Source of the DNA: Branchiostoma lanceolatum
Lineage: Eukaryota; Chordata; Leptocardii; Amphioxiformes; Branchiostomatidae
Assembly (NCBI RefSeq): GCF_035083965.1
Contig: NC_089731.1
Location: 10,328,001-10,392,000, forward strand
Reading direction: 5' to 3'
Length of the DNA: 64,000 nucleotides
A program made the position numbers and the translations under genes. The notes under the pieces were generated by a model that was not told where the DNA came from, did no database searches, and worked only from the letters and a program-made list of their open reading frames with translations. The first letter of the stretch is position 1, and the number at the start of each line of letters is the position of its first letter. Shown in pieces: positions 1 through 29,134 of this stretch.

Positions 1-3000
1 TACAAAATAATCAACCATTGCAATATTTTACCTTGTGTGCAAAACCTCTCCTCTTGATGTTCTCCAAAATGGAAGCAATCTTGGACTCATCAAACTTGCC
101 ATCACCGAGGAAGTTTCCACCATGGATAACACTAATCATGGTGATACAAAAAACAGCTCAGAAAACATTGCTTACTTAGTAGTTAATGGTCAATAATTGT
201 AGACATTATTGATAACAAGCATTGATGGTCACATGATGATCATAGTTCTATAACTTTCCACAACTACCCTCTTGGTTGCCATGGTTACTTACCTGTTCCC
301 TGCGATCTCTACCAGCTGGACCTCTCTGGTCTCACCTGGTTCAAACCGGACAGCAGTGCCTGCTGCAATATTCTGCAGAGGGAAGATAGTGTGTGAACAT
401 TAGGTAAGGATGGAGAAGATAATTACTACTGTGTATATTGAACAAGTTGCCGTCATGCTAAAACATGTACTTTGTAATCCACTTGCACTTACCAGTCTTT
501 TTCCATAAGCCAGGGTCCTGTCAAACTGCAGGAACTTGTTTACCTCCAGGAAATGGTAGTGGCTGCCAACCTGTTGGACATAAGCCACAGTGTTTTAGTT
601 AAATGCTCTCTCTGTGCCCCCCTCTCTTTTATATATTTATCTGCCTTTTTACCTAGACATCTAAAGACATAAAGGAAATGTGTCATTAAATCTATATGGC
701 CTTAACATAAGTTCAATTCAGTATTTCACCAGATTCTTTCCACATAAAGCATGAAATGTACACTTACTACAGTACACGAACAAGTATACATCAGTATAGA
801 TAACTCTTTCCTACAAGTATATATCATACATTTAGCAGCAAAATCTTTCCTCTGTATAGAGGAGTTCTATTGGACCCCACAAGTTTGAAACTCAGTTCCT
901 TTACCTGGATGGGCCTGTCACAGAGACTGGTGACTGTGATGTTGGCAGTTTTACGCCCCACGTTCATCTCAATCTCTCCAGTCTCGGTGTACAGTTGTCC
1001 TGGCACAACATGAAGACAGGCCCCCTAGAGCAACAAGGAAGACCAGTTTTACTTTCATTAAGTAATCTTTAGATACATTGCACAAAGTGTAACTTGCTAC
1101 ATTATATACACCATGTATATACATGTGTATATATATATTTATCTTCGCCGAGTACTTGTACTCGGAGAGGATTATGTTTTCGGTTGAAAAATCTGTTGGG
1201 TGGGTCTGAATGTATGTCAGGAGCATAACTCAAGAAAGCTTCAATGAATCTTTATGATTTTTGGTAGGTGTGTAGTGGTTGTGCAAAGAAAAGTCAAGTT
1301 CGAAAATGGTTCACCTTGCGTTTTTCAACAGTACTGCAGCAGACTTTACATTTTTTTGTGTTTGTATGTAGGCAAAAAAAGTGACCGAAACGTTGATGGA
1401 TCTTCATGATTTTTTGCAAGTGTGTAGATGTTGTGGAAACGGGGGTCAAGTTCAACAATGGTTCCCCTGGTATTTTCCGTTGATACTACAGCGGGCTTTG
1501 TGTGGATGTGTATTTGTATGTCGCCAGCATAACTCAAGAAGCTGTTGATGGATCCGTATGATATTTAGTCGATGGGTAGGGTTTACAGAAAGGAAGGTCA
1601 AGTTCGATAATGGGCCTTCTAGCGGGTACCTAAGGTACTGCAGCGGAGCTTCCAAATTTAGGGGCATATTTTCTGAAAGTGCTATGGTCATGATTTTTGT
1701 GTGGTAGATAGTTCACGCCACAGAAAGTAAGTTCTGTAAATTTGGGCCCCCTAGCGGCTTGTTAAGAACTGCAGTGGGTGTTTTTGTCTTGACATTCGGA
1801 CATGAATAACTTGAGAAGGATATTCCGGATATTCCGGATATTCCGGATATTCCGGATATTCCGGATATTCCGGATATTCCGGATAATCCGGATAATCCGG
1901 ATATTCCGGATATTCCGGATATTCCGGATAATCCGGATATTCCGGATGACTGCTGTCACTGTCACGGAAACACTCCTACACATCTTCAACTCAAAATGGT
2001 TACTATCCTAAAGAATTGTCCCTATTCATTAATCCGGGGACACCTTGTCACCTTCACACATTTAAGCACTGTTCAAAAATTCATATTCCTAATGCGACTA
2101 GACAAACCTCCCATTGAAACACACGTCTGTTCTTCTATATCTAACGTTACTATAACCGAAAAGTGAGGAGAAGTAGAATTTATCTAATGATAGTCATATT
2201 CTTTTTGTATCCGTTAACTGTACTTGTTATTTTGTTTTGTTGTGACCTGTACTTAGCCAAGTGTGGCAGAAATGTGCAATAAAGGTCTTCATTTATTATC
2301 TTCGCCGAGTACTTGTACTAGGAGAGGATTATGTTTTCGGTTGAAAAATCTGTTGGGTGGGTCTGAATGTATGTCAGGAGCATAACTCAAGAAAACTTCA
2401 ATGAATCTTTATGATTTTTGGTAGGTGTGTAGTGGTTGTGCAAAGAAAAGTCAAGTTCGAAAATGGTTCACCTTGCGTTTTTCAACAGTACTGCAGCAGA
2501 CTTTACATTTTTTTGTGTTTGTATGTAGGCAAAAAAAGTGACGGAAACGTTGATGGATCTTCATGATTTTTTGCAGGTGTGTAGATGTTGTGGAAACGGG
2601 GGTCAAGTTCAACAATGGTTCCCCTGGTATTTTCCGTTGATACTACAGCGGGCTTTGTATGTCGCCAGCATAACTCAAGAAGCTGTTGATGGATCCGTAT
2701 GATATGTAGTCAATAGGTAGGGTTTACAGAAAGGAAGGTCAAGTTCGATAATGGGCCTTCTAGCGGGATAAGGTACTGCAGCGGAGCTTCCAAATTTAGG
2801 GGCATATTTTCTGAAAGTGCTATGGTCATGATTTTTGTGTGGTAGATAGTTCATGCCACAGAAAGTAAGTTAAGAACTGCAGTGGGTGTTTTTGTCTTGA
2901 CATTCGGACATGAATGGGCCTTCTTGAGAAGGATATTCCGGATATTCCGGATATTCCGGATAATCCGGATAATCCGGATATTCCGGATAATCCGGATATT

Positions 3001-6000
3001 CCGGATATTCCGGATAATCCGGATATTCCGGATATTCCGGATAATCCGGATATTCCGGATATTCCGGATATTCCGGATATTCCGGATAATCCGGATATTC
3101 CGGATAATCCGGATATTCCGGATATTCCGGATAATCCGGATATTCCGGATATTCCGGATATTCCGGATATTCCGGATATTCCGGATATTCCGGATATTCC
3201 GGATATTCCGGATAATCCGGATAATCCGGATATTCCGGATATTCCGGATATTCCGGATATTCCGGATATTCCGGATAATCCGGATAATCGGGATATTCCG
3301 GATATTCCGGATAATCCGGATATTCCGGATATTCCGGATATTCCGGATAATCCGGATATTCCGGATATTCCGGATATTCCGGATATTCCGAATAATCCGG
3401 ATATTCCGGATAATCCGGATATTCCGGATATTCCGGATATTCCGGATAATCCGGATATTCCGGATATTCCGGATATTCCAGATAATCCGGATAATCCGGA
3501 TAATCCGGATATTCCGGATATTCCGGATATTCCGGATATTCCGGATAATCCGGATAATCCGGATATTCCGGATATTCCGGATAATCCGGATATTCCGGAT
3601 ATTCCGGATATTCCGTCACTGTCACGGAAACACTCCTACACATCTTCAACTCCTGTCTACAAAATGGTTACTATCCTAAAGAATTGTCCCTATTCATTAA
3701 TCCGGGGACACCTTGTCCCCAGACAACATGCTATCGGGGAATATCAATAATTTGTTGTCTGGAAATACCCGTTTTGTTGACTATGCAGAACGTTACAGAT
3801 GTTATAATTTATCCCTTTTATTTAGTACTGAATTGTATACCAGCATAAAATCCGGGATAACCAAATTCGTGGGGATAGTGACAGTGACAGCAGTCAGACG
3901 GACAGATTCCACCTGGGCTCAGTGCAGTTACTTTGGCACACTTAATAGAATAGAAAACGAATGTCATTTTGTGGTAGAATGTGGATTATATACCAAAGAA
4001 AGAAATGAACTGTATAATCTTGTAGAAAACCTATTTCCCTACTTCACACATTTAAGCACTGTTCAAAAATTCATATTCCTAATGCGACTAGACAAACCTC
4101 CCATTGAAACACACGTCTGTTCTTCTATATCTAACGTTACTATAACTGAAAAGTGAGGAGAAGTAGAATTTATCTAATGATAGTCATATTCTTTTTGTAT
4201 CCGTTAACTGTACTTGTTATTTTGTTTTGTTGTGACCTGTTGTAGCCAAGTGTGGCAGAAATGTGCAATAAAGGTCTTCATTTATTATCTTCGCCGAGTA
4301 CTTGTACTAGGAGAGGATTATGTTTTCGGTTGAAAAATCTGTTGGGTGGGTCTGAATGTATGTCAGGAGCATAACTCAAGAAAACTTCAATGAATCTTTA
4401 TGATTTTTGGTAGGTGTGTAGTGGTTGTGCAAAGAAAAGTCAAGTTCGAAAATGGTTCACCTTGCGTTTTTCAACAGTACTGCAGCAGACTTTACATTTT
4501 TTTGTGTTTGTATGTAGGCAAAAAAAGTGACGGAAACGTTGATGGATCTTCATGATTTTTTGCAGGTGTGTAGATGTTGTGGAAACGGGGGTCAAGTTCA
4601 ACAATGGTTCCCCTGGTATTTTCCGTTGATACTACAGCGGGCTTTGTGTGGATGTGTATTTGTATGTCGCCAGCATAACTCAAGAAGCTGTTGATGGATC
4701 CGTATGATATTTAGTCGATGGGTAGGGTTTACAGAAAGGAAGGTCAAGTTCGATAATGGGCCTTCTAGCGGGTACCTAAGGTACTGCAGCGGAGCTTCCA
4801 AATTTAGGGGCATATTTTCTGAAAGTGCTATGGTCATGATTTTTGTGTGGTAGATAGTTCATGCCACAGAAAGTAAGTTCTGTAAATTTGGGCCCCCTAG
4901 CGGCTTGTTAAGAACTGCAGTGGGTGTTTTTGTCTTGACATTCGGACATGAATAACTTGAGAAGGATATTCCGGATATTCCGGATATTCCGGATATTCCG
5001 GATAATCCGGATAATCCGGATATTCCGGATATTCCGGATAATCCGGATAATCCGGATATTCCGGATATTCCGGATAATCCGGATATTCCGGATATTCCGG
5101 ATATTCCGGATATTCCGGATATTCCGGATATTCCGGATATGCCGGATATTCCGGATATTCCGGATATTCCGGATATTCCGGATATTCCGGATATTTCGTC
5201 TGACTCCGTCTGACTCCGACACTGTCACGGAAACACTCCTACACATCTTCAACTCCTGTCTACAAAATGGTTACTATCCTAAAGTATTGTCCCTATTCAT
5301 TAATCCGGGGACACATTGTCCCCAGACAACATGCTATCGGGGAATATCAATAATTTGTTGTCTGGAAAAACTATTCTCCTCTATCTTAAATACCCATTTG
5401 GTTGACTATGCAGAACGTTACAGATTTTTTCCCTTTTATTTAGTACTGCATAAAATCCGGGATAAACAAATTCGTGGGGATAGTGACAGTGACAGCAGTC
5501 GGCTGGTTGGCGACATGACGAAATAGGGACAAAATAGAAAGCCTGACAAAAACACCTAAAACACCTAGAAACACGTCAACAACCAGCCAGATTTATTCTA
5601 TTCATATATATTGACTGTACTATGTCATCATCACTTTCAACTTACAACACTGCAATATCGAACCTTTGTGGCCCATATAATATCAACATACTCATATTTT
5701 TTCATGACCAGTTATAACATATATCAGCACACTCTACACATATAACGTTAACGTTACTAGTCCTGTACCACCAAATGATTTTTAACCATATCTAAACTGG
5801 ACTCATTCGCCCCATCATAACTTCCAAATGGTATGGAGCATGATCAAATTTGCAGGGGGTGATAAGCACGTAAATATTAATCACTCTCCATGATAAGCCT
5901 TGATTATTTGGCGAAGATAATGTGTTTGTGGAACTCTAGTTTATTCATAATCTTAATGACATCATACATGCAAAATGTCCACTTGTTAGTCAGCTTTTAT

Positions 6001-9000
6001 TCAGCATTTCACAACAGGAACAGTGATAAATATTGATACAAAAGAATATAATGAGAAATAAAAGTACCTAATAGTAATAACATTTTTTCATATACAGTTT
6101 GGTGCTTTAAGAAGTAGTAAAATTTGCAACTTGTTAAAGTCAGCATTTCATAATAAACTTGAATGGTCAACTGAAAGCAGAGGTCTGTTTTTTTGTAACA
6201 TTTCTGGTCACTTACTGCTTTGAAGACGTTCACATCTGGAATGGGAAGAAAGCTGCCATATAGCGCTAGTTCCAGGTTTCCGTCATCTAACACAATAGGC
6301 TGGTGGACTGTCACCTGTGGGGAGGGGGGCAAGGTGTCAATGTTAACACAACATAGACGTGGAGGAATAGTCTGAGACATACATTGTATAATGTAGATCT
6401 GAACAGTAGGAATAGTTGGATATAATGTAGATCTGAACAAAATAATTCTGAAACTATATGTTGCAACCACTTTTATAGGAAACACATTTTGTTGTAATCA
6501 AATCTGTACAAAAAGACTACTCCAGGGACTGATAAAATCTGGTCTATGTGGACAACTTAGTAACCTAGAACTTTTGTTTGTGACCGCACTAACTTCTCAG
6601 CATGTGACTGCACACATACCAAGGTGATTAACAAATGGACCAGTCATACAGCTTGCTTCAAGTGTCATAATTGACATGTTCGGATGATTTAACAAAAGAG
6701 TAGCCTACCAATTTTGTGCCATCTTGAAAGGTGCCCTCGACCTGCACCTCTGAGATCATGTCTTCCACACCTGGTTGTACCTGATTTGTTCCTGTAGAAT
6801 GGGCAAACAAGCATCTTACATAACATGCAGTGAACAATAGACACAACACAACGTTATTGTCTACAATCACTGTAACACATAGCTAATTCATTAACTTACA
6901 CAAAGTAGACACAACACTACAAACCTTCATTGTCTACTATCATGTACAGTCAAACCTGCCCAAGGCGACCACCCGGCGGACCAAGCAAAAACGGTCGCGA
7001 TGGACAGGTGGTCGCCATGAAGAGGATTCCACTCACATGTTTCCAGGTCGAGGTTTTCAATACAGTACGTAAATGGATGGAAAATTATGTGAATTTAGAC
7101 AACATGACCCCCACCAGGTTCAATTCTCATTGACAGGAAGATCCTACAAAAATTACATTTTCCGTTATCGTCGTAATAATTGTTTACCGCTACATCGTGT
7201 ACAAATTTTTGTCATAATTTTGACTACAAAACAATGCCAATGGTTGCCTCGATGATCGCAGCGCCCTCCCGCATTCACACGTTACATTAGATAGTACACT
7301 CTCACACACACGCACATCATTGAAGTTTTAAAGCCTAAGACAAATCCCTAGAAAACACCTGCTGACCCCAGCCTTTTTTGGGGCGCCGACCGCTGGATAA
7401 AAGGGGCAAAAAGTTTTCGATCTGACAACTAAAGATGAAAACGGAACGGTGTGATTTCGTCGCGCCGCGCCGCATCGAAAGGTAAGTCAGTGCAGCAGAA
7501 CGCACACCGTCCAATAAAGGTTTGTGAGATTCATGGAAATAAAAAGAAAATAAGAATATTAATTTTGATTAATAACTAGAGTATTCGTAAATGTTCATAC
7601 ACAAAAGCAACGTGTTTTAGAAAGGTCAGCGGTACGCCAAATCCGGTCCGCGCCAAATCCAAGATGGCGTCGGGACCAAGGACCAATATTTCTCGCCTGA
7701 CGTTATGCCCGCCGCGAAGTCATTTTTCGGCGGAATTTAGCAAGACACAGACACATTTTTGTTGAAAATACAAGAAATAGATAGTAGTTTCTGCGAAATC
7801 TGACTTTTTGACGCCATGCACTACGTTTTCGTTTTGAAAATTGAGTTTAAACCGAACTGAGTTTGCGGTAAACTATAAGATTACGATAGGCACAACAACA
7901 TCACAAACGTTTGTCTTTACAATGTTTATAGGGGGAACGTTTTATTAAAACACTTCATGGAGGAATCGATGCTATAACATTGCCATTCCATATATTTTTG
8001 TCCTTATTTTTGTACTTCAAAGTCTTGAAAACATTTCCGTGAAATCTGACAGCAAAATGATCCGATGTCACCACACGCTTGAAAATTAGGCGACCGCCAT
8101 GGGCAGGGATTGTGCTCTGTGCGGTCCCAATTCGTGGCGGTCGCGGTCGCGTTGGACAGGTGGTCGCCTTGGGCAGGCAGCTTAATGCTTGTGCCTATGG
8201 GGAAATTTTTCGGGACCGAGAAAAAGAGGTCGCCATGGCCAGGTGGTCGCGTTGAAAAGGTGGTCGCCTAGGCAGGTTTGACTGTATCTTTTAGAATATT
8301 AAAAAAAGCTCATTTTCCTATGAATTCGCCTCACCATAGTGATAAACAAGCAGAAGAAGTAATCTTTTCAAGCCAGCTTGAATTTTTTCCCCGTCATCCC
8401 AATTCCCATTGCGGAAAGATCCTACAAAGAATCATTTTTTCTCATCATCGTGTCCAAACGTAAAATTTTGACATTTCTATATTTTTATCCATCAATTTCT
8501 GTCTGTCAGGGTTGACGGAATGGACAGTCTAGTCTTAATATTTTTCCATCATATGCAACAAATTCCATCAGTGGACAGATTGACAAACTGATTTGTATTT
8601 ACCCAACATTTCTCGTCCCTTCTGCATGAGCTCAGACACAGGGTGGGTGCCATCTCGAATCAGTTCCTGGATCTGGGAAACAAAACAGCATGAATGAATT
8701 ATCTATCATGTATAAAAGTGTGGGGTCGTGTGGCACGACGGCAGAGCGTTCGGTCCCGAGTTTGAATCCTGTCGTGTCACCGATCTTGTGCCCTTGGGAA
8801 AGGCACTTTACACGACTTTCCTCACTCCACCCAGGTGTAAATGGGTACCTGACTTCGGTTGGGGAAGGTTTTATTGAGGTCACCTGGTGGCGCCGAATGG
8901 CAGCCGCCCAGACCCTTGCGACAAATCCACAAAATGCAAGTGTGGATAGATTAGGTATATGTTGTGTATTATGTGAAACATGTTAACCCTGCATCAATTC

Positions 9001-11759
9001 AGCGCTAGAAAGGCTGCCATTGCGGGTAACTTCTGACCAATAAAAGACATTATTATCATTACAAGTGTTGTCTGTTTTAAAATTTGTTTTTATATCATTT
9101 TGACATACAGTAGGTTGTAACTCATTTATTAAGATAGGGGGCTTCCTGAGACACAAAAAATGCAAAAAGGCAAGTCCAATGCAAGCCAACTATTTTAACA
9201 GTTGACTAAATTTCTTTGAACTTCAAAAGTCATTTACACAACTTGGACCAACATCAATATAATAGTAAGTTTGATATTTAAAAAAATTTCAGGATTTCTG
9301 TCGGCACCTGGTTAGATCAGCATTACAGAATATGACAGTACCGTAGTCACTATGTGTCACATTTGTAGTATTGCATATTGAACCTGAACTTGAGTCACAG
9401 ATGAAGTGGTCAGTATATTTAAAGTATATTTTTTTAAAAACAGCTGATTTTCTGGTTCTGATTTATGGAATGTAACTTTTATTTTCAGCCGAACAGATTT
9501 TACCAGTCAATACCATTGAAATCTTTTCATAGCACTTCTGTATGCAATCAGCAATGATGTTGTTGCACAAAAAAAACACTTGACATTCATTCACTTGACA
9601 TTCATTCACTCAAGGTTATTTTCTTCTTCTTTATAGGCATTGAAATACATGGTATATCATTTATTATTAAAACATGTAGTATAATCCACATGCATAATAT
9701 ACTTTTTGTCCCCAGCTTCAGTTCCAGGGTCTCACCGTACGAAGACATGATAAACATGTTATGTCTATGGTGTCTAGACTAATGGTCAAACAGGTCTGGG
9801 AGGTCAGTGACCCAGTGGTCTTGTACAAACATATGACATGATGGTCCATCCTATCCATTAATCACCCTGAAAATAGGTCAATAGAAATAAGGTCAGTGAC
9901 ATTACATGCCGGTTTTCTTATTTATGCCTATTGCCCTGTGCCCCCCCCCCCCCCCCCCAAAAAAAGAAGGAAGAAGTGAAGATTGGGCCAACCCAAACTG
10001 GTAAAAATTAGACCCAATCTATATAAAGGGATTTTCTTTTGTAAACCAGACAGTAAAGGGCAACCTTTCAACCAGTAGCAGAGCCATTACAGATTGCACA
10101 ATCTCCCACTGGGCTGGCGCAAATGGGCCACGCCCCTTAGATTATCCGCCATGGTGAGGGTGTTTAGGCAAGCTGGCTACTGTAGTGTAGGGTTTCATCA
10201 AGGAGGTTATATAGACTATATAACCTCCTTGGTTTTATGTGCCTCAGGGGAAAATGTTGCGATTCCCGCGGACTGACTCTCCTCTCCATTTTTCACTATC
10301 ATCCATAAGCCGCCAGGAAGGCCTGGTGGAGGTAACAGTTATAACCCTATTAAAGGGACTTGCCCTTGGAGACTTTCCAGCACGTGGTAGTTTCACGTGT
10401 AGACTGAGTTCACGTGTTAGCTGCGTGATCACCGCATGTGCACAGCGCATGCAGTGGTCGATTCCACTGTAGAAAATCAACACAAACTCTTATGATTTCA
10501 TCACGCACTAAGACCCCGTTCACACTCATTTTTTTCAATCGCGATTGAAGTATAATCGCGATTGAATCGATCCGATCGCGATTGATTTTTTCAGTGTGAA
10601 CGCTCCCAATCGCGATTGGAACGATCCAAAACGATCCAATCGCGATTGGATTGTAACTACCTCCGGAGGTAGTTTGATTGGATTAATCGTGATCGGATCC
10701 AATCCAATCCTATCAAATTTTGAGTGTGAACGCAACTACGATTCATTCCATCGCGATCCGCGGGGATTTCGGCCGGTTCAAGGCTAGGGTCGCAACTTAT
10801 CACATAAGTAATGTACCAAGTACAATGTTTTCCCACAAATCGTCGCTTCATTCACGCTCCCAGATTGTCTACAGCACTTGTCGCGTTCATTACCCGTACT
10901 ACAGCGAGGCCAATATACAAAAGCCTTCGTCGTTCACGCCTTCTCGCGATCATAGCCCGCCGATTGCCGTGTTCCCTTCCACGGCTACAGAACATTCTCC
11001 AGAGATACAAAATCATCAAGAGTTTGGGGACTCCCGCCATTTTGTAGCAAGCGACGCCGAACCTTTGACCTCGTGCTTCAATCGCGATCGGATCACGGCG
11101 TACTTTAATCCACTTGGCGAAAAGCAGTGTGAACGCAAAAGTTTCTTTGCGTTCAATCGCGATCGGATCGAACAATCGCGATTATACTTCAATCGCGATT
11201 GAAAAAAATGAGTGTGAACGGGGTCTAAATCAGATTCCAAGTTCACACAAAAATTGTGTAACTGGTAAAATCACATTGTCCTATACAAAACGGAAAAAAT
11301 AGCAACACGTGTAAAATGGCAACTTTTGCTAAATTTTGCTAATCACGAAAAGCAAGACAAATCGATACTTCAAAGCTCGGAAGTAACATTGTTTTGTACC
11401 TTATAAGTTTGTTGCTACTGCGTCAGGGTGTGATTGGCGCAGTGTTTTCGTTTCTATCTTCACAGCTTTATCTTATTTTGCATCAAAATAGTCTAAATGA
11501 TGCATGAGGGGTCGTCTAAGGATAATGTTCGCACATTTCTTACATCCAAACAAAAGGCAGAAGAACGTGTAAGAAATAGACTATTGTGGCAAAACTGGGG
11601 TATAAGTTTAAGGTTTTACATTACAAAACTGACCTGGCAGGCTATCAAGGCGACAGCTTCTGGGTGGTTGAGTCTCAGTCCCCTGGCCAGCCGTCTCTGT
11701 GCCACCCTGCCCGCCTGTTCTACCAACAGGCTCTCTTGTTCCCGCGGGCTCAACTTCAT
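1..11759 (-). CDS. urease, single-chain eukaryotic type, 5' part (gamma and beta domains; alpha domain outside window)
   Basis: Urease hydrolyses urea to ammonia and carbamate with a di-nickel centre in the cytoplasm. Eight coding exons are visible on the minus strand: 11634-11759 (start ATG 11757-11759), 8603-8672, 6709-6791, 6216-6314, 905-1024, 493-570, 293-372 and 32-131. All have AG/GT borders and joining phases. Exon 1 reads [15 protein letters not shown] and carries the gamma-subunit signature [12 protein letters not shown]. Exons 2-4 continue it with [28 protein letters not shown] and VTVHQPIVL. Exons 5-7 are the beta domain ([17 protein letters not shown] then [23 protein letters not shown]). 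Exon 8 is the beta-alpha linker ([22 protein letters not shown]), which resembles the linker of plant ureases such as jack bean. The Ni-binding, carbamylated-lysine and active-site residues belong to the alpha domain before position 1. Intron 4 (1025-6215) is filled with repeats. The gene is head to head with ureG. Confidence 0.95.
1820..1947. repeat. 9-bp minisatellite, array 1 (about 14 copies)
   Basis: Head-to-tail copies of ATATTCCGG with interspersed ATAATCCGG variants, in repeat unit 1 of urease intron 4. Predicted proteins here are by-products of a 9-bp unit without stop codons. Confidence 0.97.
2932..3615. repeat. 9-bp minisatellite, array 2 (about 76 copies)
   Basis: The longest array: 684 bases of ATATTCCGG and ATAATCCGG units, differing mostly at one T/A position, with a few other substitutions (for example near 3289, 3390 and 3480). 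Because the unit is 9 bp and lacks stops, long reading frames appear on both strands, giving D-I/N-P, R-I-F/I or E/D-Y-P repeats. None has a splice or start context to suggest a gene. Confidence 0.97.
3616..4160 (+). mobile_element. LINE reverse-transcriptase tail fragment (unit 2)
   Basis: The translation contains stretches typical of the end of a non-LTR retrotransposon ORF, such as FVDYAERYR and, further on, [20 protein letters not shown], a C-terminal Cys/His-type tail. It ends ITEK and stop near 4156, followed by a 3' UTR with AATAAA near 4267. Shorter matching pieces occur at 1962-2296 and 5200-5526; the latter keeps [20 protein letters not shown]. All are truncated and frame-broken, so they are fossils. 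Confidence 0.75.
4965..5198. repeat. 9-bp minisatellite, array 3 (about 26 copies)
   Basis: The third ATATTCCGG/ATAATCCGG array, in unit 3 of the composite repeat, with one copy reading ATATGCCGG near 5139. Confidence 0.97.
6947..8284. mobile_element. TA-flanked DNA transposon (Tc1/mariner-pogo-like ends), non-autonomous
   Basis: The element starts CAGTCAAACCTGCCCAAGGC and ends with the inverse CCTAGGCAGGTTTGACTG, flanked by TA at 6945-6946 and 8285-8286. The motif GGTGGTCGCC and its inverse recur several times near both ends. Its 1.34 kb contain no transposase that I can recognise. It lies in urease intron 2. TA duplication and CAGT-type ends are usual for the Tc1/mariner/pogo group, but the superfamily is an inference. 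Confidence 0.8.
8700..8965 (+). mobile_element. tRNA-derived SINE, family A
   Basis: It has a tRNA-like head (GTGGCACGACGGCAGAGC as an A-box-like part, GAGTTTGAATCCTG as B box) followed by a body containing CCTTGGGAAAGGCACTTTAC. The same body motif is seen at 47625-47860 in inverse orientation, and a shorter form at 14310-14615. It lies in urease intron 1. Confidence 0.75.
10200..10230. repeat. near-perfect 31-bp palindrome
   Basis: Arms AAGGAGGTTATATAG and CTATATAACCTCCTT around one central A. It could be a cruciform or two abutting transposon ends. It lies in urease intron 1. Confidence 0.9.
10512..11225. mobile_element. Harbinger-like MITE with 53-bp perfect terminal inverted repeats
   Basis: Positions 10512-10564 are the exact inverse of 11173-11225, beginning GACCCCGTTCACACTC. 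A 3-bp TAA duplication flanks the element (10509-10511, 11226-11228), as is usual for PIF/Harbinger. The palindrome AATCGCGATT recurs many times in the terminal thirds. The middle (10740-11060) is unique sequence with a minus-strand frame rich in Arg and no recognisable transposase. It lies in urease intron 1, just downstream of exon 1. Confidence 0.85.
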
Positions 11760-12839
11760 CCTTGCTGTGATCCTTGTTCTACCAGCAATTCTCCAGAGAT
11801 CCAGATATCACAAGCGGCCACTGGCAGTTACAAAGTAAGGATGGTACGTCTTCGTCCAAGATTAATTCACTCTACTTCTTTTAGCTGAGTGAGAGGTATA
11901 TAATTCCACGTCCTTAGGCAAATCCTACTCTTTGTTTGTGTTTGCCACCCGTCTGTGGGAATAATTCTAGACCAGCCAGTCCATATATACTAGCAGGGGG
12001 ATCCAGATTTAGGGTTGACATTTTATCATACAGTATGTCATCAGCAGCTGATATGAATTTAGGAAATTGAAGAATGTGATGTATTGAAGTGCTTTTGTTT
12101 TAAATAAAATAAATAAAATTGGTGGTACGTTGCGCTATTATAAGGGAAATATGTCAATATCTCACGTTCTGGTAGTGGTATCGTCCTCAGCCAGAGGAGA
12201 CACCAGGCAAGGTTAGCGAAAAGAGTGAAGGTCTTTTGCGGTTACAGGGGTGTAACGTTATATGCTTGTTTACAACCTCGACCTTGCTCTGTGTTACTGG
12301 ACATTGACGTACAAGACTCGTAGAAGCCGGACATTCCCCCTCTTTATCACGCCAAAGCTGTCGGTTTTTGGCTCAGCCTCAGACCAAAACCTTTCTGCTA
12401 GCATCCCTGCAGGCATGGCAGCTGCAACCCTTCCACACTGGTCAGGAGAGCACTGAACCGTGAGGGACAGAGAGAGAGTTTGTGTTTTTACACAGTAAAA
12501 CAACACACAGACTAGTAGTGACAGAACGTGGAGGGGGACAAAATCGTAACAGGTTTAACAATACTTGCAGTCTCTACAGACTCCTTGGGTTGCTGAAAAA
12601 ATGGTAATGTTATGAATAAGCCAAACTGTGTTAATGATTTGCCAAAGTTTTAGTAGCAGGCAAATGCACACATTCAGCAAACTATAGCAATGTGTGACTC
12701 CTGGCACCCCTATTTGACCAATTTCTAACCCTAGGCACCTGATGAAGACTCATAACTGGCAATCGTTCACCTCATTGATTCAAGCCCTTTATTTTTGCAG
12801 GATCATTTTCAAGATCATCATCTGAACCTGACATCTGAC
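11760..12839. promoter_or_regulatory. divergent intergenic region between urease and ureG
   Basis: About 1.08 kb separates the two start codons, which face away from each other, so this region must hold both promoters. A possible splice acceptor (TTTTTGCAG at 12792-12800) just before the ureG ATG suggests a ureG 5' UTR exon. I see no TATA box that decides a start site. Confidence 0.55.
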
Positions 12840-15800
12840 ATGGCATCTACTGATCAAGTGAGCTTTGTGAAAGGTAACAGTTAAGTTGAAATCATAGTTA
12901 ACGTTATGACAGGACTTTGCTGCACAACAACCATGCCAATTTTGAAATTTAATGTTGGGTTTTATTTGTTTGTTTGGGGCTCCCTTGACCTACTGCTCTG
13001 AGCTTGTAGGGAGAGCCCTGCATGATTTGATACTGTAAATGCAGAAATATTTGAGGTGGTTTTATGTTCGCGGTTTTCGCGGCGACCGTTTCACCGTGAA
13101 CTTAAAACCACCGCAAACATTTAGCAGTGTGTGACTAAAGCACTGCCGCGAACTTAAAAGCATGGCGAACACTCCATTTTCACTTTTAAAGTGCTCTAAT
13201 AGAGCAAAACTAAAAACCGTCATGCAAACTTAATGCATTTACAGTTCACTGTTTTGATACTCAGTTGGCCTTGTTGTTGCCCCAGTTGGACGGAGGTTAG
13301 TTAAGGTTTGTCAGGTCATCTAAGGACAGGGAACCTTTGGACTCCTTGAACTTTTGGGACCAAGTATAAGATATTTTTTCAGTTTGTGGAGACTTTCATG
13401 TCACATATATCACGGCTTTATGATTTTTTTTTGTCTTGTTGTATCGTACTGTAGCACACAAGAAGTTAAATCCAGGTACAAGGACAAAAGGTGTCGACAA
13501 GTTGCTTATTGTTCAATAAAATCAATTAATCTTAATAAGATGTGGCCATTAGGCAAATATATTCTATGATTAGGGCCTGGGCGACACAGAAGAATGCTGG
13601 TCAAAGGCAATTACCGGTAGGTGATCTAGATCTGAGGACAGGCTACTAGGTCAAAGGCCGTTAGGTGATCTGAGGACAAGCCATAGGGCTCAAAATAGTT
13701 GGTGCCTGTGCGCCCAAAACACTTCTGTGCACCTAATTTTTGACTGTGGGTGCACTGGTGCACCTAAATATTTTTGTACGCTATAGGGTACTGTAAAGGT
13801 ACTATTGTACACTAGTTTACAGAATATTCTTGAAAGTATCAAGAAAAGCAATATAACCTTTTGTTGTACTTTATTAGATTTATATAGAATCACAAATTGA
13901 AGTTCTTAAAAGAGGCATTGGCATTCAAACTTTGTAATATTATGTCTTGCTGACATTCAACTTCATTTCATGTTGTGCATCACAAATTCTTTCTGTGCAC
14001 CTAATTTTTTTGGTTGGGTACACCAGTACACCTATTTTCAAATATGAATTTCGAGCCCTTCAGCTAGGTAAAAGGCAGTTAGGTCATCTGAGGATAGGTA
14101 AACTATAAGCAGGTCAGTTGGGATTGAAACCCTCCCTCCTTGCACCATGACACTCACTGGACCCATAGCACAAACAAAACCCTTGACTATGTTTTTATCT
14201 GGAAAACAAATATTTTTCAAACAGTTGACAAGGGTGCCAACAGGTTGCTTTGTGGTTTTGTTTAAAACTAGTTAATCTTGATATGATTTGGTCATTATAT
14301 AGGCCACTTGTACAGCAGTGGCGTCGCAGTGGCGCAGTTCCTTGGTTCAAATCCGGGGTCCCCTGATTTGTCTCGTTGACGTTGTGCCCTATGCTTCACG
14401 CCACTGTGCCCCAGTGTGGAAAGGCACTTTACATGATTCTGTGACTTTGACACCTCAAGCACGTAAAAGAAACCACCACGCTTATCGAAAAGAGTATGGG
14501 TCCTTCCCGGTGAGAGTGGATCAAATATATCTGTTCTGATATGCAGCTTGTACTCTTCAGTACAAACCTGGTGTGGTATGCCATGAGGCAGTTTACTGGG
14601 TATGCAATACAAACAAACAAACAAACAGAATGTGGGTCAAAGACTGTCATGTCATCTGAGGACAGGCTGGCCTTAATTTGAACCTGCGTTTAGACCACCT
14701 GGTAGTTCAAATAGTTAATCATATGTTATGTTTTACTTTCACTTCCAATAGAAGTTGTTGTCAAAAATCATTTGTGTTGTGTCCTATATAATGTCTTTGG
14801 TTCTACATACAGCTGGGTCTATGGATGATGCCAGCAGTCAGGGGCATCATCATCACCATGGAGACCATGGCCACACCCATGAAGCCATGGAGCATCCAGG
14901 GAAATTTACAGCCAGAGATAGACCAGTCTTGAGAACAGACTGGAAGCAGGTAGGAGTTGTGAAACATGTGATATTGTAATGTGCAGTGTTGTGTCCAATC
15001 ATTTGGAATATATTGTGGTAACAAAAGGGTCAAGCAGTCATCCCCAGGTCCTTTTCCACGTAGCTTAGTACTGGTAGTGCAATGCCGCTTCGCAACGGCT
15101 CAAGTGTTTTGTCAAGGCAAGCACACTGGGTCACCCCTACCCTTTTTGATAAGTGTCATGAGAAAAGCTAGATTTGTCCCTGACACAAGTATTGTTTTCA
15201 TATTTCCTCAGCATGTCAGTCATGCAGATAAAGCAGCTCACTGCTTAGAACATTGCAAATCATTCATTTGTGGAACATGTAGGTCTCCTGATGTTGTTAT
15301 ACTTTGTGTATAATATGACAGAGAGCCTTCACAGTGGGAATAGGAGGCCCTGTCGGCTCGGGGAAGACAGCGCTGGTCCTGGCCCTGTGTAAACACCTGA
15401 GGGAGGCCCATGCCATCTGTGTGGTCACTAATGACATCTTCACCAGGTGAGCCATAACATAGTCTGGCTGCCAGACTGTTTCCAGGACCTACAAAGTACA
15501 AAGGCAAGCTCCTTGCTCTAGGGCCAGACCCTGTGTTAGACTTAGACCCTGAGAAACACAAAAGATATCGGGGGACTGGCATCCAGGCTAGCCATAACTT
15601 AGAAATTAGAGATATTCTCCTTCTTTTTTTTCAATATACACCTCTCAATCTATTGAACAGTTGGATTATTGAGTGTTGAATATGTTTTAGAGAAGACTGG
15701 GAGTTTCTCGTGAAGAACAAGGCCCTGCCAGAGGAGAGGATGAGAGCAGTGGAGACAGGAGGGTGTCCACATGCAGCCATCAGAGAGGTCAGTTGGTCTG

Positions 15801-17495
15801 ATTTACAAGCAGATAGATCTACATGTACTGGTGGCAAGGCAGTATCCAAAGGGCCAAACAGGCCTATTGTATAGTTATACTGTGTTTGGCCCTTTGGCCA
15901 CTGCCTTGCCACCAGTAGATCTGCTTGGAGATTATGTTGGTCAGCTGCATACACAAAAATGAGCACTGTCCCAGAACAGAATGTGCAAGCGATCAGGCTG
16001 GCTGGCGAATTGTTTGTATATAGCAATAATTAGCATCAACTGTCAATAAGTCACCACCATTTAACCCTTGACCTGAGCAGGTTACATGTACCTCTGTCAG
16101 TTGCAATGTGTTATCATACAGGCGTGTACAGTAGTTGTCATGTTGTAGTTAAAAAAGAATTCATCACGATTTCTGTTGGATGTTTGCGCAACATTGCATC
16201 AGAATTTTTCATCCATTGCATAGTCCTTCCTATGCAACGTTTGGAAACTAGGGATATTATCCTTACATGTACATATGCAAACATGACCTTATACAATACA
16301 TTCTGTCAAAGTGCTGCACAGATGCTCATTGAATGTATTCCATAGACTTGTATAGTATAATCTAAAATTGTAGTACATTGTATCTAGTATCGACATATTT
16401 TTTATTGGTAGGAATTTTTAACTCTTGAATTACTAGATAAAAAGGGTAAATTTAAATCAAATGGTCATTTTTTTACTGTTTTGTCATTTTCATCAGGATT
16501 ACTCACTGAATATGGAAACGGTGAAAGAACTGACAAAAAAGTTCCAGCCTGAATTGGTCATCATTGAATCTGGTGGAGACAACTTGGCTGCTAACTTCAG
16601 TACAGAGCTAGCAGATTACATCATCTATGTGATTGATGTAGCAGGTAAACAATGTGTTTCACACTTGTCAACTACAAGAAAGTTTGTGTTGACAGCCACT
16701 CCATTGAGTAGGGCGAGTCTACTAGTGCAGTCAGTTATTTTGTTGGCGGGCTTTCCTGGCCCTTCTCTTTGACTTAGCAGCAGGTTAGACTGTCTCGGTT
16801 TCAAAAGATGAAACACTGTTTTGGATCAGCTGTCACCAGGCACTGGAGAATAGTTTTAACCTACCATGACTCCTTAGACATAGAATTGTGCAAAATAACA
16901 TGTATTATTTTTTCCTCAGATTTGAGATACCCCGAAATTACATTATTAGAAACTGCAGTGAAAAAATCTTATTAAAGAGGAACACTGTTTTTTAATCCTG
17001 CAAGTTGCAATCTAATTCGACAATCTGCCAAAAAAACTTGTTTGAGATTGATTATATAGCCAATTCATTCTGTTCTCCCTTGTTGTGTGTGGATAGGAGG
17101 AGACAAAGTCCCCAGGAAAGGAGGGCCTGGAGTCACACAGAGCGACCTCCTGGTTATCAACAAGACGGACCTAGCAGAGGCTGTGGGGGCTGATCTTAAG
17201 GTGAGAGGTGCTGCAGAAGATAGGAAAATATGTCGTAAATTGTGACCATGTTGTTCCCAATGCCACCTCAGCCTAATCATTTATGTGTACCTCATTTACA
17301 TCAATGGAAATGCCCATGTTTCTCCAACCTTCCATCTTGACCTCCTGTTGCTAGGTGATGGACCGTGAGTCTGCTATGATGAGGGATGGAGGACCCACCA
17401 TCTTTGCCCAGGCAAAACACAACATTGGGGTTCCAGAGATAGCAGAGCTCATCTTATCAGCACTTAAACAATCAGTTCCACATCACACACAATAG
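12840..17495 (+). CDS. ureG: urease accessory GTPase UreG (261 aa)
   Basis: UreG binds GTP and nickel and delivers nickel to apo-urease in complex with UreD and UreF. Seven exons: 12840-12873, 14813-14949, 15322-15446, 15691-15787, 16497-16644, 17097-17200 and 17355-17495 (TAG). All phases join, giving 261 codons plus stop. Visible features are a His-rich nickel-binding N-terminus ([13 protein letters not shown], exon 2, as in plant UreG), the P-loop [11 protein letters not shown] (exon 3), [21 protein letters not shown] with the conserved Cys-Pro-His metal motif (exon 4), [11 protein letters not shown] (exon 5), [19 protein letters not shown] across exons 5-6, and the guanine motif NKTD. Bacterial UreG is about 205 residues; the excess is the N-terminal extension. 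The first small exon ([11 protein letters not shown]) fits in frame but is the least certain part. Confidence 0.95.
13032..13245. mobile_element. small MITE, ends ACTGTAAATGC / GCATTTACAGT
   Basis: An 11-bp terminal inverted repeat bounds 214 bp with several GCGAACTTAAAA-type internal motifs. It lies in ureG intron 1. A degenerate relative may lie at 31395-31490. Confidence 0.7.
14310..14615 (+). mobile_element. tRNA-derived SINE with (CAAA)n tail, family A-like
   Basis: The head has GTTCAAATCCGGGG as B box, then GGAAAGGCACTTTAC, and it ends in repeated CAAA near 14607-14627. It lies in ureG intron 1, upstream of exon 2. Confidence 0.7.
15827..15916. repeat. 34-bp-stem hairpin in ureG intron 4
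   Basis: Arms 15827-15860 and 15883-15916 are inverse copies with two mismatches and a 22-base loop. The arms contain GGTGGCAAGGCAGT and CCAAAGGGCCAAACA. Partial pairing (AGATCT, AAGCAGAT) continues outside. The hairpin starts 40 bases after the exon 4 donor. It may be a fold-back MITE or a precursor-miRNA-like transcript; no target-site duplication is evident. Confidence 0.85.
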
Positions 17496-20898: not shown

Positions 20899-21120
20899 AT
20901 GGGTAAATGTGATTGGATGTGGAGCATCTTGTGGCTCCTGCTTCTAATTTTCATAGGTTGGCCGCTGGGGTTCCTTTTTGCCTGGATCTGGGTGCTGATT
21001 GGTCCGTTTGCTGTCTGCATTTCGGCCTTAAAATCATTAGACGAAATACTTTTGAAAGGAGCAAAGTTACCGATCACTTTTGCTGAGAACATGGTGAAAC
21101 AAACACCAATATGTGGCTAG
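20899..21120 (+). CDS. small hairpin membrane protein, copy 2 (73 aa), unknown function
   Basis: Paralog of the gene at 18991, with a three-residue insertion (MGKCDWMWSILW). It has the same two hydrophobic segments around a Gly-Trp-Pro turn (IGWPLGF) and the same invariant block GAKLPITFAENMV, ending Ile-Cys-Gly. It is a single exon on the same strand, about 1.7 kb downstream, so the pair is a tandem duplication. The strongly conserved C-terminal block suggests that the tail, not only the hydrophobic part, is functional. A role in the urease pathway is suggested only by position. Confidence 0.75.
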   Translation: MGKCDWMWSILWLLLLIFIGWPLGFLFAWIWVLIGPFAVCISALKSLDEILLKGAKLPITFAENMVKQTPICG

Positions 21121-21872: not shown

Positions 21873-24800
21873 TTAGGAGTGGAAGAGTTTGGCAAACATG
21901 GTGTCGTGTGTGTTCTGTGTGATGTCTACCAGGGGGAAGGTCACACAGGCTTCCTCCACTGTACGGCTCACGTTCCTGAAAAAGTACAGGGAAATTCTCC
22001 AAATTATTTACTAAAACACGAACGATTGTCTTCCCAATACTAAAAAAGTTCATTTTCATTCTAAGGTACTGTTGAAGGGTGCCTGAGACGAGTTTCGGTG
22101 TGTTCTACAAATGCCAACTTAGTCAAGTATTTACCTTGATTTTTTCAGTTGGTAACGTTACCTTATTGCAATGCGATAATTTATGCAGCCAGTACGTATC
22201 CATATGAGTAATGAGGCTATTGTAGTGCCTTTTAAAATGCTAAGGGCACCTCCTTGCTCACAAGACCCCCATTTTACGTCCCTTCCAAAAGACGGGTGCA
22301 GCCTCAACCAGAATACCATTCCCCAGACTTGAACCAGGGTCTCCAAGTTACCAGCTAATTGGAACCAAGAGCTCAACTATGAGGCTTCTATCAACTGAGC
22401 TAATGGAAAATCTTTGATTGATTGATGAATTTTCAACTGTGTTGGTTAAAGATATCATTTCTGTCACTAAGGTCAAGAGATGTACTTCTTTATCTCAAAA
22501 AGATAATGACTAAGATTCTAGGTCATTCTAGCATACCTCTTAATGATGTTATCCACACCTTCCTGCAGTTCAAACTGAATTCTTTGAGCCTGGGAAGGGA
22601 AAGGTATGTTATGAAATTGAGGTAAAAGAGAGATAATCTTCTGTCTTTTCAGTGAACTGTGCAGAATTGGTCAACTACAAAAAAATTATGTAAACCTCCT
22701 ACTTGTGCAGTGTAGCAAAGATAAATTTGGTACATAGATGATCCAATATTAGGGAGAAGGTTACAAAACACTTCACAACCAACAGATTTGCCAGAGAGCA
22801 TGAGACTAAAAATGTAGTTACCTCAATGGTTCCAACATTGCCTAACCTGACAGCACTGGCTATTATAGTTCTCAGCACCCCAAACACAAACATCTGGAAA
22901 AGATATGAAAATATTCTCTAAAAGTTACACACACAATAATTCATTCTGAGATTGACAGGAACGTTTCAATCATACAACAACTATTGAATAGTCATTTGCT
23001 TAAGCATAAGCTTAAGCATTTCTTTCAAGGGTGGAACGTTAAGCTCTGGTCCACAGTGCATTGTACTGGTTGAAAAGAGCTTGGAAAATTTTCCCGGTAC
23101 AGGAAACCTGTAAATACCGTATATAGAGTCTGTCTTCTTTGTGGCAGCTCAACAGTTAAACGAGTTCCTTGAGCTAAACTGATTTGATATCACATTTACT
23201 TTTACCTTTTCTTTCTTACTGAAACATCTCCCTGGGGGTCCTAAATATAGATTAGTCAACCCTTACCTGGTGAGCTTGATGAAGGTCCAGCTGTAACACT
23301 GCACTCAGGAATCCAAACATCACGGCATAGTGACCATGAAGTCTGTCCTGTTCTAGTAAGGTCTGTGGATCGATAAAAACAAACATTAAAGCATTCAAAC
23401 TCTTTCACAAATAACGTAATGATATATCAGTGGCATGATAACCAACCTCTGCTTTGAGTCTGACTTCTTTTTTGTTGATAACTTGTAAGTATGGTCAGTA
23501 ATAACTATGCAGATCTTATTTCTTTATTGAATAGGATACTGGTATACATGGTGGACATTAGAATCACATTACACATTTACATTCTGAAAAAGGTCATGAG
23601 GTTTTAGCTGTATTTGTGGACTTTTTCTCTAGCGTGCTGATGTGAAATTTGTCCTTGACACACTAACATTATAGTAACTTTATACAAGAGGATTGGACAC
23701 ATAGTATTACCTCTATTCTCCTGATCTGTTCATCAGGGAATATCTTGGCTGCTGTCACAATTAAGGAATTTCCCTATGTAAAATAAAACATGTCATGTTT
23801 TTTTTTTTTTATTATTCAAAGAACATAACAAGATACAATAAGAGAACCATCCAACAATAACTGCTCATATACAAATAATATGAAATCAGATATAATAATA
23901 GTAACCGAAATTCGGTAATGATCACATAATTCATCCAACAGAGATGAATAATGTGATGTAACTCAGATTAAGGGATTTCTTACATGACAAAAATAACAAC
24001 AGAAGTTTCAATGAAACAAGAAATGAATCATATGAACCACATATTTAGCTGCATGTCATGTTAACAGTGGCATAAACACCATATTCAGAGATAATTCAAA
24101 TCAGCAATTTTGTTGCAAATATGGCTATGAAAATTTGTCAGACTGATAACACTTTGACTGTTACTTAAAATGAAATGGAATGCAACCACATTCCTAAATA
24201 GGGACCTTAGATATTAAATCTCAGGACTATTTCATGCAATGGCACAGTGACCTTGCCATGCCTACTATTTTCAATAAGTGTATTGGGTTCTTTTACATGC
24301 AGTGGTTTGTTGCATCACAGGGCATCGATGGCCAAATAGCCTGATCTCAAATAAAACACTGTACAAACTGTGTAACACAAGCCCGCTGTCAACAAAAGTG
24401 AAAGATGCCAGGTGGTCTATGTTCGGACACATTCTGAGAATGCCGACCGACACACCTGCACAACAGGCTTTAGACTTCGCCCTGATAGGATGCAACAGAT
24501 ATAGTTCCAGAAAAGGAAGACACTGCAAAAACTTACTGAGCCTACTGAGGGCAGACCTGAAGGAAAGAGGTCAAGGACCGTTGCGGTCAGAAAGAAACTT
24601 ACGGGAGCTAAGGAAGCTCGCAGCGAATCGGACTAAGTGGAAGGGACTGAAGGAAGACTGAATGCGGCTGCAGGATGTTTCAACTACTGCAGCAGCAGAA
24701 AACAGTGGACTACTACTTTGTTGCTTGATTGATGCTAACACCTAAAGCCCCAGGGCCGCCGACTCTACATCACCCTCTGAAAAGACGAATGCAATCGCTT

Positions 24801-26016
24801 ACAACATTTTTGAGCTGGGGCTGACCCTAGGATAGAACTCCAGCCCACAGATCCACGGAATTTGATTTATATGGCCAAGCAGCCGGGTTCCATTAATGCC
24901 CGCGCAACGGGAACAGTTGCATAACACAGAAACAAATCTACAATGACTTTGTGATAAGTCAACGGTATGCTGTCCTACTACCTACATGTACCTGTCTGAT
25001 GCTGGCTCGGTTGGCTACATGGTTGTTGAGACAAGCCTGACACCTGGAGTCCAGGTCTGTCAGTCTGTCCTGGTCCATGCAGCTGTGGTATGCAGCTGTC
25101 ACATATGGCAGGCTGAAAGAACCTGGAAATGCATGAAAAAAATAACCCATCACACTCATAGAGAAGAGTGGGGGTGACTCCATGTGCTAATTGGCTTTGA
25201 AAGCAAGCTAGCTGTAAGAAATCTGCATTGCTCAATTTGCTATTGAAATTGTTACCTTCAGCATTAATATGCTTTGTTTCAAGCTTTGAGTTTGACCAAA
25301 GCAGAAGAAGCTTTTTACATTGTACAGGTGTACTTGTGGTTATACATGTGATTACTTCCCAAATCTTAATTATATCACTAATTGAACTTAACACTGAATA
25401 AGAATATACAACCAACCTGAGCTTACACAACAACTATAAACTGGAATCTTACCTGCATTCTCCATACACTGTACAGTGAATTGCTTGAAGTTTTCTGAAA
25501 GAAAAAAAACAGGTACCCATTCATGTTGAAAATACTGTTTTGACTGGAAGGTCTACATGGGGGGGGGGGGATCCTGGTAACACCATTAGGTAACACTAAA
25601 CGGTAAATTTAGGAGAATATCGTCATAATCTAGTGTAGAATAAAACAGTGTAAGGTTAAATATGGGATGTCTGAGGATCAATGTTGTAACAATAATCATT
25701 TTATCAATAAAACATTTTTTCTTAAGTTCAACAGTTACCTGGGGTGTTGACAATGCCCAACTTGATGGCTGCTTCTAGACCCACACTGTGTGAAAACCCT
25801 CCAGTTGGGAAAGCTGTCATTTTCAGACAAACATAAAAGTTAACATGAGTTATTTAAGTATCATCGTCACATATACAGACACAAGGGAGTGCACACTGAA
25901 GTAAAAATGACAAAACGTCGAAATATCTGATACTGAAAACCACAGCATTGTTCTAATATAAGTAAATCGTCACCTGAATCTGAGATCTGAAGTATTGTAA
26001 CCAGTTTCCCGTTCAT
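21873..26016 (-). CDS. ureF: urease accessory protein UreF (225 aa)
   Basis: UreF bridges UreD and UreG in the urease activation complex and controls nickel release by the GTPase. Nine exons on the minus strand, in transcript order: 25974-26016, 25739-25813, 25453-25494, 24992-25122, 23711-23773, 23267-23362, 22822-22893, 22537-22589 and 21873-21975 (TAA). All phases join to 225 codons plus stop. Exons 1-2 give the family signature: LVTILQISDS then AFPTGGFSHSVGLEAAI. Exon 4 has SFSLPYVTAAYHS; exon 6 has HGHYAVMFGFL; exon 7 has VLRTIIASAVRLG; the C-terminus PLVDITQNTHDTMFAKLF matches the usual end of UreF. Length is normal for the family. The start is the first ATG after an in-frame stop. It is divergent from ureD, 413 bp between start codons. 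Intron 4 carries a LINE fragment, intron 8 a SINE. Confidence 0.95.
22185..22405 (-). mobile_element. tRNA-derived SINE, family B
   Basis: On the minus strand it begins TTAGCTCAGTTGATAGAAGC (A box) and has GGTTCAAGTCTGG (B box), then a body with GGAAGGGACGTAAA. Copies of the body also lie at 42690-42895 and 46915-47020. It lies in ureF intron 8. Confidence 0.8.
24278..24720 (+). mobile_element. LINE 3' fragment (reverse transcriptase C-terminus)
   Basis: The plus-strand frame 24278-24661 reads GHRWPNSLISNKTLY, then PLSTKVKDARWSMFGHILRM, ending LAANRTKWKGLKED. This layout is typical of the C-terminal tail of non-LTR retrotransposon ORFs in invertebrates. The RT core is absent, so it is 5' truncated. 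It sits in ureF intron 4 in the opposite orientation. Confidence 0.7.
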
Positions 26017-26429: not shown

Positions 26430-29134
26430 ATGGAGTTGTCTAGCTGTAAGGACGAAGATAAGTTTGAGACTGTTGATAAAACTGAGAAACGAACCCAGTC
26501 CCGACCCGAGGCAAGGGGGAGGGCGGTGTTTCAGCCAGCCTGGGAGAATGGGCAACTTGTTGCTGTCACCAATACTGTACTTCAATACACATACCCGGTA
26601 AGGGGAATCATTCACAACCATATTTACATGAAAAGTATGACATGAATAGTATCTTATAGCTGACAGTGCTAGCTTGAACCAAGTATATTTAACCTCCTTG
26701 ATTTTACTAACGTTAAGACTTTAAAAAAGTTTTTTGTCGTCTGCTAAAATTATAATTTACAATTTCATTTTCGGCTCGGGGCAAACGCCTGTTTTTTTAC
26801 GGATATAACGTTTCTTATTTTAATAGTTTTGCGATGTTAAATATATTCTTTGTGTCCTTCTTTTTATGATACATATTGTACTCCCTCACAGTTGAAGTTA
26901 CTGCTGCCTCAGAATGTCAGTAGGACAAAGACGTGCCAGTGGCTGTACGTCATCACGTTTGGTGGGGGTCTAGTCGCAGGGGATAACATCCAACTGGACA
27001 TAGAGCTGGCTGAAGATTGTGCAGTTGTAGTCACTACACAAGCCTCAACTAAGGTAGTAAACTTCTAACATTAATTTCTCTATTGATTTGCTGATAATTT
27101 GATTCATTTATAGATTCATTCATTCACACGTATCACATTCACTCAAATAACATTTGTCATTAAATTGTATGGGTCATCAGATAGATGTGTTGTAGTACAC
27201 ATACATTAGACTGTATGGACTTTATACTGTTCTATAAACTGCCCTGTTTTCTGTAGGTTTTCCACAGTGTGGATGATTTGGTGACTTGTCAGACATTAGA
27301 GTCTAAAGTTGGAGCTGGCTCACTTCTAGTCCTTCTACCTGATCCTGTGGTGTGTTATAAGGACGCAGCATACAGGCAGGAACAGGTATGTATATGATAG
27401 GAGCCTTCCAGTCAAGGAGGGATGAATAAGTAGAAAAGTAGTTTGCCTTTCCCTTGCCAAATTATCTATTATCAGTTTAGAAGTGAGTAGTTGAGATGTG
27501 CAAAGGATCAGTGTAGTTTGAGCTGCTTCCTCCCTGTGTGCTTGTGCTACACGGAAGTCTACATGTGTATGTCCTACGGTATGTTTCATTTTTGCTAAAG
27601 GTTCATAATTTAACACAACACATATCTTTTGTAGGTGTTCCACTTGAACCAAAGTTCCAGTTTAGTCCTGTTAGACTGGTACACATCTGGGAGGATGGCA
27701 CGGGGAGAATGCTGGGAGTTTCAAAGGTTAGTTTTGACTAGGTTGCAACACTTGGATTAGGAAATGTGGCATCGTGATCACTGAATTGGGACAGGTTAAT
27801 CAGATTTACGTCACAACTTTTTCACATTAAAAGCTGGCGGTACCTTTCTAAAGGCATCTTACAGTCTTAATATGTAAGCCTATTACCACTTAATATGTAA
27901 ACCTAGCAAAGGGCCCCATGCAGGGTATAAATCATCATGGCACATGTGATGATTCAACACATTTTATCTTTGACATTTCTTTTGAAGCATTTGTAGAAAA
28001 TTACAAGACAGCATCTTTGGATAATACAAAATAACTGCTGCTAAACCTTAGCATGAAAGTTCATCTGTGTTAGTTAAGTTTAGTCTTTCATAACTGCTGC
28101 TAAAGTTGACACAAGGCACAAAAACGTAAGAAATCAGATCCATGAAACCTTTATCTCTTTTTCAGTTACCACAGCATCAACAGTATCTACCTGGACAACA
28201 GGCTAGTGTTCAGAGATGTGGTGTGTTTACAGGACACTCCATTATTACCTGTAAATCAGGCAATGGCACAGTACAATGTGGTGGGCATGTGTGTTCTCAT
28301 TGGTCCAGCTCTGTCAGACCTCTACAAGAAACTGCTGAATGAACTCGGCAGGAGTAAGCCTTATGGTAAGTTCATGTTCTTAACCTTATTCCTACTGAGG
28401 CAAATGTCGGGACACACAAAGTTGTATTGGTTATGGCAGTGGCGGAAGGGAGAAGGTTAAACACGTAGACAGAAGTTTGCTGTAAGGACTTTGTCATTGA
28501 GTCTGTTGATGTTAATATCTTAGCAGCCAAACATGCAATACCACATCCAAGTACCAGTACGAGTCATGTCAAGCACAAACCCATCTGGTAGAACTTACTA
28601 GAAGAATTTATTCCCATACCATTGGCATTAGTACTGTGAGCTATCAAATGATCAATTGGTAAGTGTATGTTCTTTTAGGTTACAAGTACAAGAAAGATGT
28701 GGTTCTGAGTATCAGTCCTCTGAGGTTTGAAAAGGAAGGAGAAGAGATCCATGGTGCAGTTGTCAGAGTCATGGCATACACAACCACACAGGTGAACATG
28801 GCAGGTTTACTACTACAATGTACAATGTGTAGCTCTACATTTGTTATGTCATGGTTGGTATTTATTTTGTGGATGGTAATGTATTGTTGTGTGGGACATG
28901 TTCTTCTACATATTACAGTACTAGTATACAAAATATAACAGTTATGCATATATGTGTGTGTCAACAGTTATTATTTTAAGGCTAAGACCACCAAAGTATG
29001 ATACTATGACCATACTGTTTTCCCTTAGAAATGTTGTTTTTAATTGTTCTTTTCAGGTGTTCACTGAGATGGAGAGAATTTTACAAGATCTGTACCCCAG
29101 GCTAGGAGGGAACCCCTTTGAAAACAAATATTAA
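26430..29134 (+). CDS. ureD: urease accessory protein UreD/UreH (313 aa)
   Basis: UreD binds apo-urease directly and recruits UreF and UreG for nickel loading. Seven exons: 26430-26597, 26892-27053, 27257-27385, 27635-27726, 28166-28365, 28679-28791 and 29057-29134 (TAA). Phases join to 313 codons plus stop. Diagnostic stretches are GRAVFQPAWENGQL (exon 1), ITFGGGLVAGDNIQLDI and VVTTQASTKVFHSV across exons 2-3, LLVLLPDPVVCYKDAAYRQ, FHLNQSSSLVLLDWYTSGR with GECWEF (exon 4), and NSIYLDNRLVFRD (exon 5). Length fits the family (about 270-310). Its 3' end converges on NOL7, the stops being about 340 bases apart; ATTAAA at 29431 is a candidate poly(A) signal. Confidence 0.95.

Follow-up and report, generated by a model that had tools for sequence, protein, structure and literature searches.

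The window analysed here, a stretch of DNA 64,000 nucleotides long, carries in its first 29 kb what appears to be an animal urease module: a plant-type nickel urease and three maturation proteins, UreG, UreF and UreD, encoded as two divergent gene pairs. We give this reading a probability of about 0.8, a figure that refers to the identity of the module and its intactness. The four genes are present with open frames, in the following order and orientation.

32 to 11759, minus strand: urease gene, gamma and beta parts; 8 exons, 252 amino acids in view, open at the left end
11634-11759, 8603-8672, 6709-6791, 6216-6314, 905-1024, 493-570, 293-372 and 32-131, minus strand: the urease exons
11760 to 12839: gap between the predicted start codons of urease and ureG, 1080 bp; a possible shared promoter
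12840 to 17495, plus strand: ureG; 7 exons, 261 amino acids
18991 to 19203, plus strand: small open reading frame (ORF), 70 amino acids, with no family match near the cut-off
20899 to 21120, plus strand: small ORF, 73 amino acids, with no family match near the cut-off
21873 to 26016, minus strand: ureF; 9 exons, 225 amino acids
26017 to 26429: gap between the predicted start codons of ureF and ureD, 413 bp; a possible bidirectional promoter
26430 to 29134, plus strand: ureD/ureH; 7 exons, 313 amino acids

The gene models were built by hand from splice signals and then checked by script, their start codons being predictions. Many exons were first placed by tblastn, the queries being proteins of the urease operons on plasmids of Deinococcus and Aminobacter, and the remainder by reading of the sequence. 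Together the four models comprise 31 exons and 27 complete introns, without a single internal stop, and the window contains no N. An initial annotation had placed urease, ureG, ureF and ureD side by side in positions 1 to 29134, each with introns and an intact frame. The introns (GT-AG in 27 of 27), the open frames, the Pfam assignments and the 29-kb span all bear this out, with two corrections: the urease in view consists of its gamma and beta parts only, and the two small ORFs separate ureG from ureF. The clustering exceeds chance, as a crude, post hoc estimate, assuming 20,000-30,000 genes per genome, gives 6e-11 to 1e-9 for four unlinked genes falling within 6-10 genes of each other. The genes form two head-to-head pairs, urease with ureG and ureF with ureD, and a bacterial-type operon, on a single strand and read as one transcript, is not what the locus presents, as its strands alternate -, +, -, +.

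Identification of the urease rests on Pfam matches above cut-off to Urease_gamma (E 4.7e-43) and Urease_beta (E 5.1e-41), with an NCBIfam match, also above cut-off, to the gamma/beta fusion subfamily. Gamma and beta are in one reading frame, joined by a plant-type linker. The nearest PDB entries are the 840-residue ureases 4g7e and 3la4, which align from residue 1 to 251-252 with zero gaps, linkers included; identity to 4g7e is 138/251 (55%), and 3la4 aligns over residues 1-252. The entry text says only urease, and we take 4g7e to be the pigeon pea enzyme and 3la4 that of jack bean. In fusion, order, start and gap-free length, the urease part is thus of the plant type as judged from its sequence, in a comparison confined to gamma-beta. 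The final exon in view stops at position 32 at a GT donor, indicating that the gene continues leftward. Two bacterial UreC queries gave a best tblastn E value of 0.64 for the alpha domain against the window, which is chance level. This domain, which in a eukaryotic single-chain urease bears the nickel ligands, with four His, one Asp and the carbamylated Lys, would therefore lie to the left of position 1, and the part in view is the front of a urease that may be complete and catalytically competent.

The three accessory proteins likewise match their Pfam families far above cut-off. UreG matches Pfam CobW/HypB/UreG (E 2.2e-34), the NCBIfam equivalog TIGR00101 (E 1.2e-79, 266.8 bits against a cut-off of 204.2) and a solved UreG structure in PDB (2.6e-68); as a SIMIBI GTPase it carries a P-loop, a CPH motif and an NKTD of the NKxD type. 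UreF covers its Pfam profile in full (1-151 of 151, E 2.2e-30) and aligns with solved UreF over residues 7-224 (2e-9). UreD covers 1-200 of 201 profile positions (E 5.8e-54) and aligns with solved UreH over residues 53-206 (2.1e-11). A scan of viral contigs with UreG matched 12 stretches, none of them a relative.

No UreE was detected in the window, where two bacterial UreE queries reached a best E value of 0.062. The N terminus of UreG is rich in His, and, in the portion of the source available to us, a similar stretch is listed for Arabidopsis and other organisms free of UreE (PMC2770081, Table 1), a likeness that supports UreG having taken over the work of UreE. The same table, with the same limit on the source, lists it for bacteria such as Anaeromyxobacter and Cytophaga, so it is no proof of eukaryotic ancestry. 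Against a replacement of UreE speaks a coral annotation under K03187, an identifier that we presume to denote UreE. That annotation, in the part of the coral genome paper at hand, reads "urease accessory protein" (PMC3750612).

Family membership suggests how the module would work. UreG would gather nickel through its His-rich N terminus, in place of the bacterial carrier UreE; a complex of UreF and UreD would dock UreG onto apo-urease; GTP hydrolysis would free the nickel to enter the active site; and urease, once loaded, would cleave urea to ammonia and CO2. These roles agree with a study of Aspergillus fumigatus, in whose accessible portion UreG is described as a nickel carrier that hydrolyzes GTP, and UreF and UreD as the bridge between UreG and apo-urease (PMC10100864). 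We infer that the urease would be a single chain that includes alpha, that it would receive nickel and be active, and that the genes may be co-transcribed. For a Nepenthes urease, co-expression with UreD, UreF and UreG in Nicotiana benthamiana has been carried out (PMC5599630).

The surroundings of the module place it in an animal. Its neighbors include an intelectin, which matches Xenopus XEEL at 8.2e-104 and an Intelectin-1 chain at 6.5e-99, a PhyH gene (E 1.1e-16) and a NOL7-type NUC129 domain. Spliced genes beside intelectin, PhyH and NOL7-like neighbors indicate that the locus belongs to an animal. This is most likely a chordate, given the taxonomic range of intelectins, and possibly a lancelet. 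Bacterial contamination was considered and rejected on the introns and on the intelectin and PhyH flanks, as had been argued earlier from the same features; the NOL7 named with them is the less secure neighbor, its domain (E 1.6e-4, 22.4 bits) falling under the Pfam cut-off of 25. Elsewhere in the window, a long reverse-transcriptase ORF (56267-57742, Pfam RVT_1, E 1.8e-10) probably belongs to a non-LTR retrotransposon, and a tandem array of about 12 copies of a 42-base unit (49611-50124), in which either strand has long open frames, adjoins the intelectin gene.

To place the urease among its relatives, we compared its gamma-beta part with bacterial genomes. Used as a query, it found matches in 67 of 200 genomes in one phylum (that of G004), 5 of 101 in a second (G002) and 38 of 98 in a third (G003). 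A tree was made from 44 usable loci of 49 together with the window and 4g7e, of whose 46 rows 9 were identical and dropped, leaving 37; the rows are tblastn segments from which gaps and stops were removed. One bacterial sequence, from the second urease of genome G172, shares a clade (97/90) with the window and 4g7e, with no fixed order among the three. The next branches outward stand at 86/92 and 75/77, all values coming from a bootstrap that had not settled (0.989). The G172 sequence is identical to the window at 138/250 positions, as near as 4g7e. At least one bacterium thus has a relative of the plant type, and the tree alone is compatible with a bacterial source. Nor can identity by itself separate eukaryotic from bacterial ancestry, as the separate gamma and beta proteins of another bacterial locus (L018) reach 60% on conserved stretches (119/198) against 55% for 4g7e.

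The second urease of G172 (L043, 8834-11315 of contig G172:C203) deserves mention in its own right. It is a proteobacterial, plant-type pair of fused gamma-beta and alpha, and it resembles the window in its fusion and clade but differs in its separate alpha gene and in the absence of accessory genes from the 19.9 kb examined. A classical operon (L052) lies elsewhere in G172, and the L043 urease may borrow helpers or need none. The ORFs around it are, we presume, NikR-like, TonB-receptor-like and nickel-permease-like.

Gene order was compared with five bacterial clusters, L001 (Deinococcus), L002 (Aminobacter), L050 (G207), L051 (G308) and L052 (G172). As in the window, urease, UreF, UreG and UreD lie together in these operons, which differ from it in being on a single strand, in having a separate alpha gene and in the presence of UreE (in L052 a weak match). 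The order gamma-beta, alpha, E, F, G, D is found in three of the five, L001 (with hypA and hypB inside), L050 and L051; E and F come first in L002, and D in L052. For fungi, we take the first digit of an A. fumigatus locus tag to be the chromosome. That fungus, according to the part of the source available, has ureB (AFUA_1G04560), ureD (2G16070), ureG (2G12900) and ureF (6G04385), with UreE unreported there and a His-rich N-terminal extension on UreG, much as in the window, but its four genes are scattered by locus tag (1G, 2G, 2G, 6G), unlike the cluster seen here (PMC10100864). The initial expectation that fungal accessory genes are unlinked is thereby borne out for this one fungus.

Several histories could have produced this arrangement. 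The genes may never have separated since they formed part of a urease cluster in bacteria or early eukaryotes, in a linkage that now has no function. The proximity of urease and accessory genes in all five bacterial clusters is consistent with this, as is a urease type held in common with plants. We nonetheless put it well below even odds, since the bacterial clusters each lie on one strand and have UreE, whereas in the window the strands alternate, UreE is absent and two other ORFs lie within the cluster, and since the A. fumigatus genes, as far as that source was available, are scattered. The scattered fungal tags, the nonbacterial order and the two divergent pairs speak for genes that had no linkage in the animal ancestor and came together in this lineage, by chance or because co-inheritance or co-expression was favored by selection. 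These features fit a rearranged old cluster equally well, and we rate such a later joining only slightly higher, at appreciably less than even odds.

Two further readings would change the nature of the module itself, and both fare poorly. A bacterial urease operon could have been transferred into the animal lineage and gained introns later, and the proteobacterial gamma-beta of G172, equal to 4g7e in identity and in the same clade, speaks for such a source. This must be viewed in the context of the 27 introns, the gap-free collinearity with plant urease through the linkers, the lack of accessory genes beside the G172 pair in the 19.9 kb read, and the occurrence of urease in Nematostella, Strongylocentrotus and Ixodes, given in the accessible part of its source (PMC3073912), which together make transfer improbable. 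Hardly credible, in our view, is a decayed urease, whose alpha part or activity has been lost, leaving the front of the enzyme and its accessory genes. For it speak the absence of alpha from the window and a urease intron full of tandem repeats; against it, the leftmost exon has a GT donor at its end, and all frames in view are intact, which would be unlikely were function long gone. An intact animal urease module of the plant type remains our preferred reading.

Whether the divergent arrangement serves regulation was approached through the two intergenic regions. The longest word common to the 1080-bp and 413-bp regions is 11 bases, a length equalled in 47 of 200 resamples and thus no excess over chance. 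The CpG ratio is 0.94 in the ureF/ureD region and 0.44 in the urease/ureG region, values attained by 18% and 65%, respectively, of windows of the same size, so that neither is extreme. These results are neutral, and the regions may be shared promoters. Two divergent pairs among four genes in a row have a chance probability of 1/16. That the pairs aid co-expression is conceivable, and we rate it a little short of an even chance. More doubtful is the broader proposal that the enzyme and all of its metal-loading helpers form a functional cluster with two bidirectional promoters, an arrangement that deuterostomes with urease would have in common; were it true, this would represent an operon-like way for an animal genome to balance dosage.

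In bacteria an enzyme is commonly clustered with the proteins that load its cofactor, an arrangement unexpected in animals, and the locus offers a compact case in which to ask whether selection for balanced expression can keep animal gene order. It also bears on the point in vertebrate ancestry at which urease disappeared, and, should the alpha domain prove intact, it would provide a chordate for direct study of nickel use and urea breakdown. The components are known, urease having been in print since 2011 for Branchiostoma floridae, as well as for Strongylocentrotus, Nematostella and Ixodes, in the portion of the source available (PMC3073912). As far as we searched, the clustering is undescribed: a full-text search judged by titles and the openings of abstracts, with subscription literature mostly outside its scope, turned up no report of it. 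Urease "gene clusters" of oomycetes appear, in the accessible part of that source, to be groups by similarity rather than by position (PMC5993020).

The DNA within the cluster has minor features of its own. The two small ORFs between ureG and ureF are mutually similar, and each is a single exon. Neither product has a match in Pfam or, near its cut-off, in NCBIfam; both are hydrophobic by eye and end at the C terminus in LPITFAENMVxQTPxCG. One urease intron holds three arrays of the 9-base unit GGATATTCC, at 1818-1947 (14 copies), 2931-3615 (76 copies) and 4964-5195 (26 copies), and copies of a repeat element beginning TATCTTCGCCGAGTACTTGTACT occur in it at 1140, 2297 and 4286, each ahead of one of the 9-base arrays.
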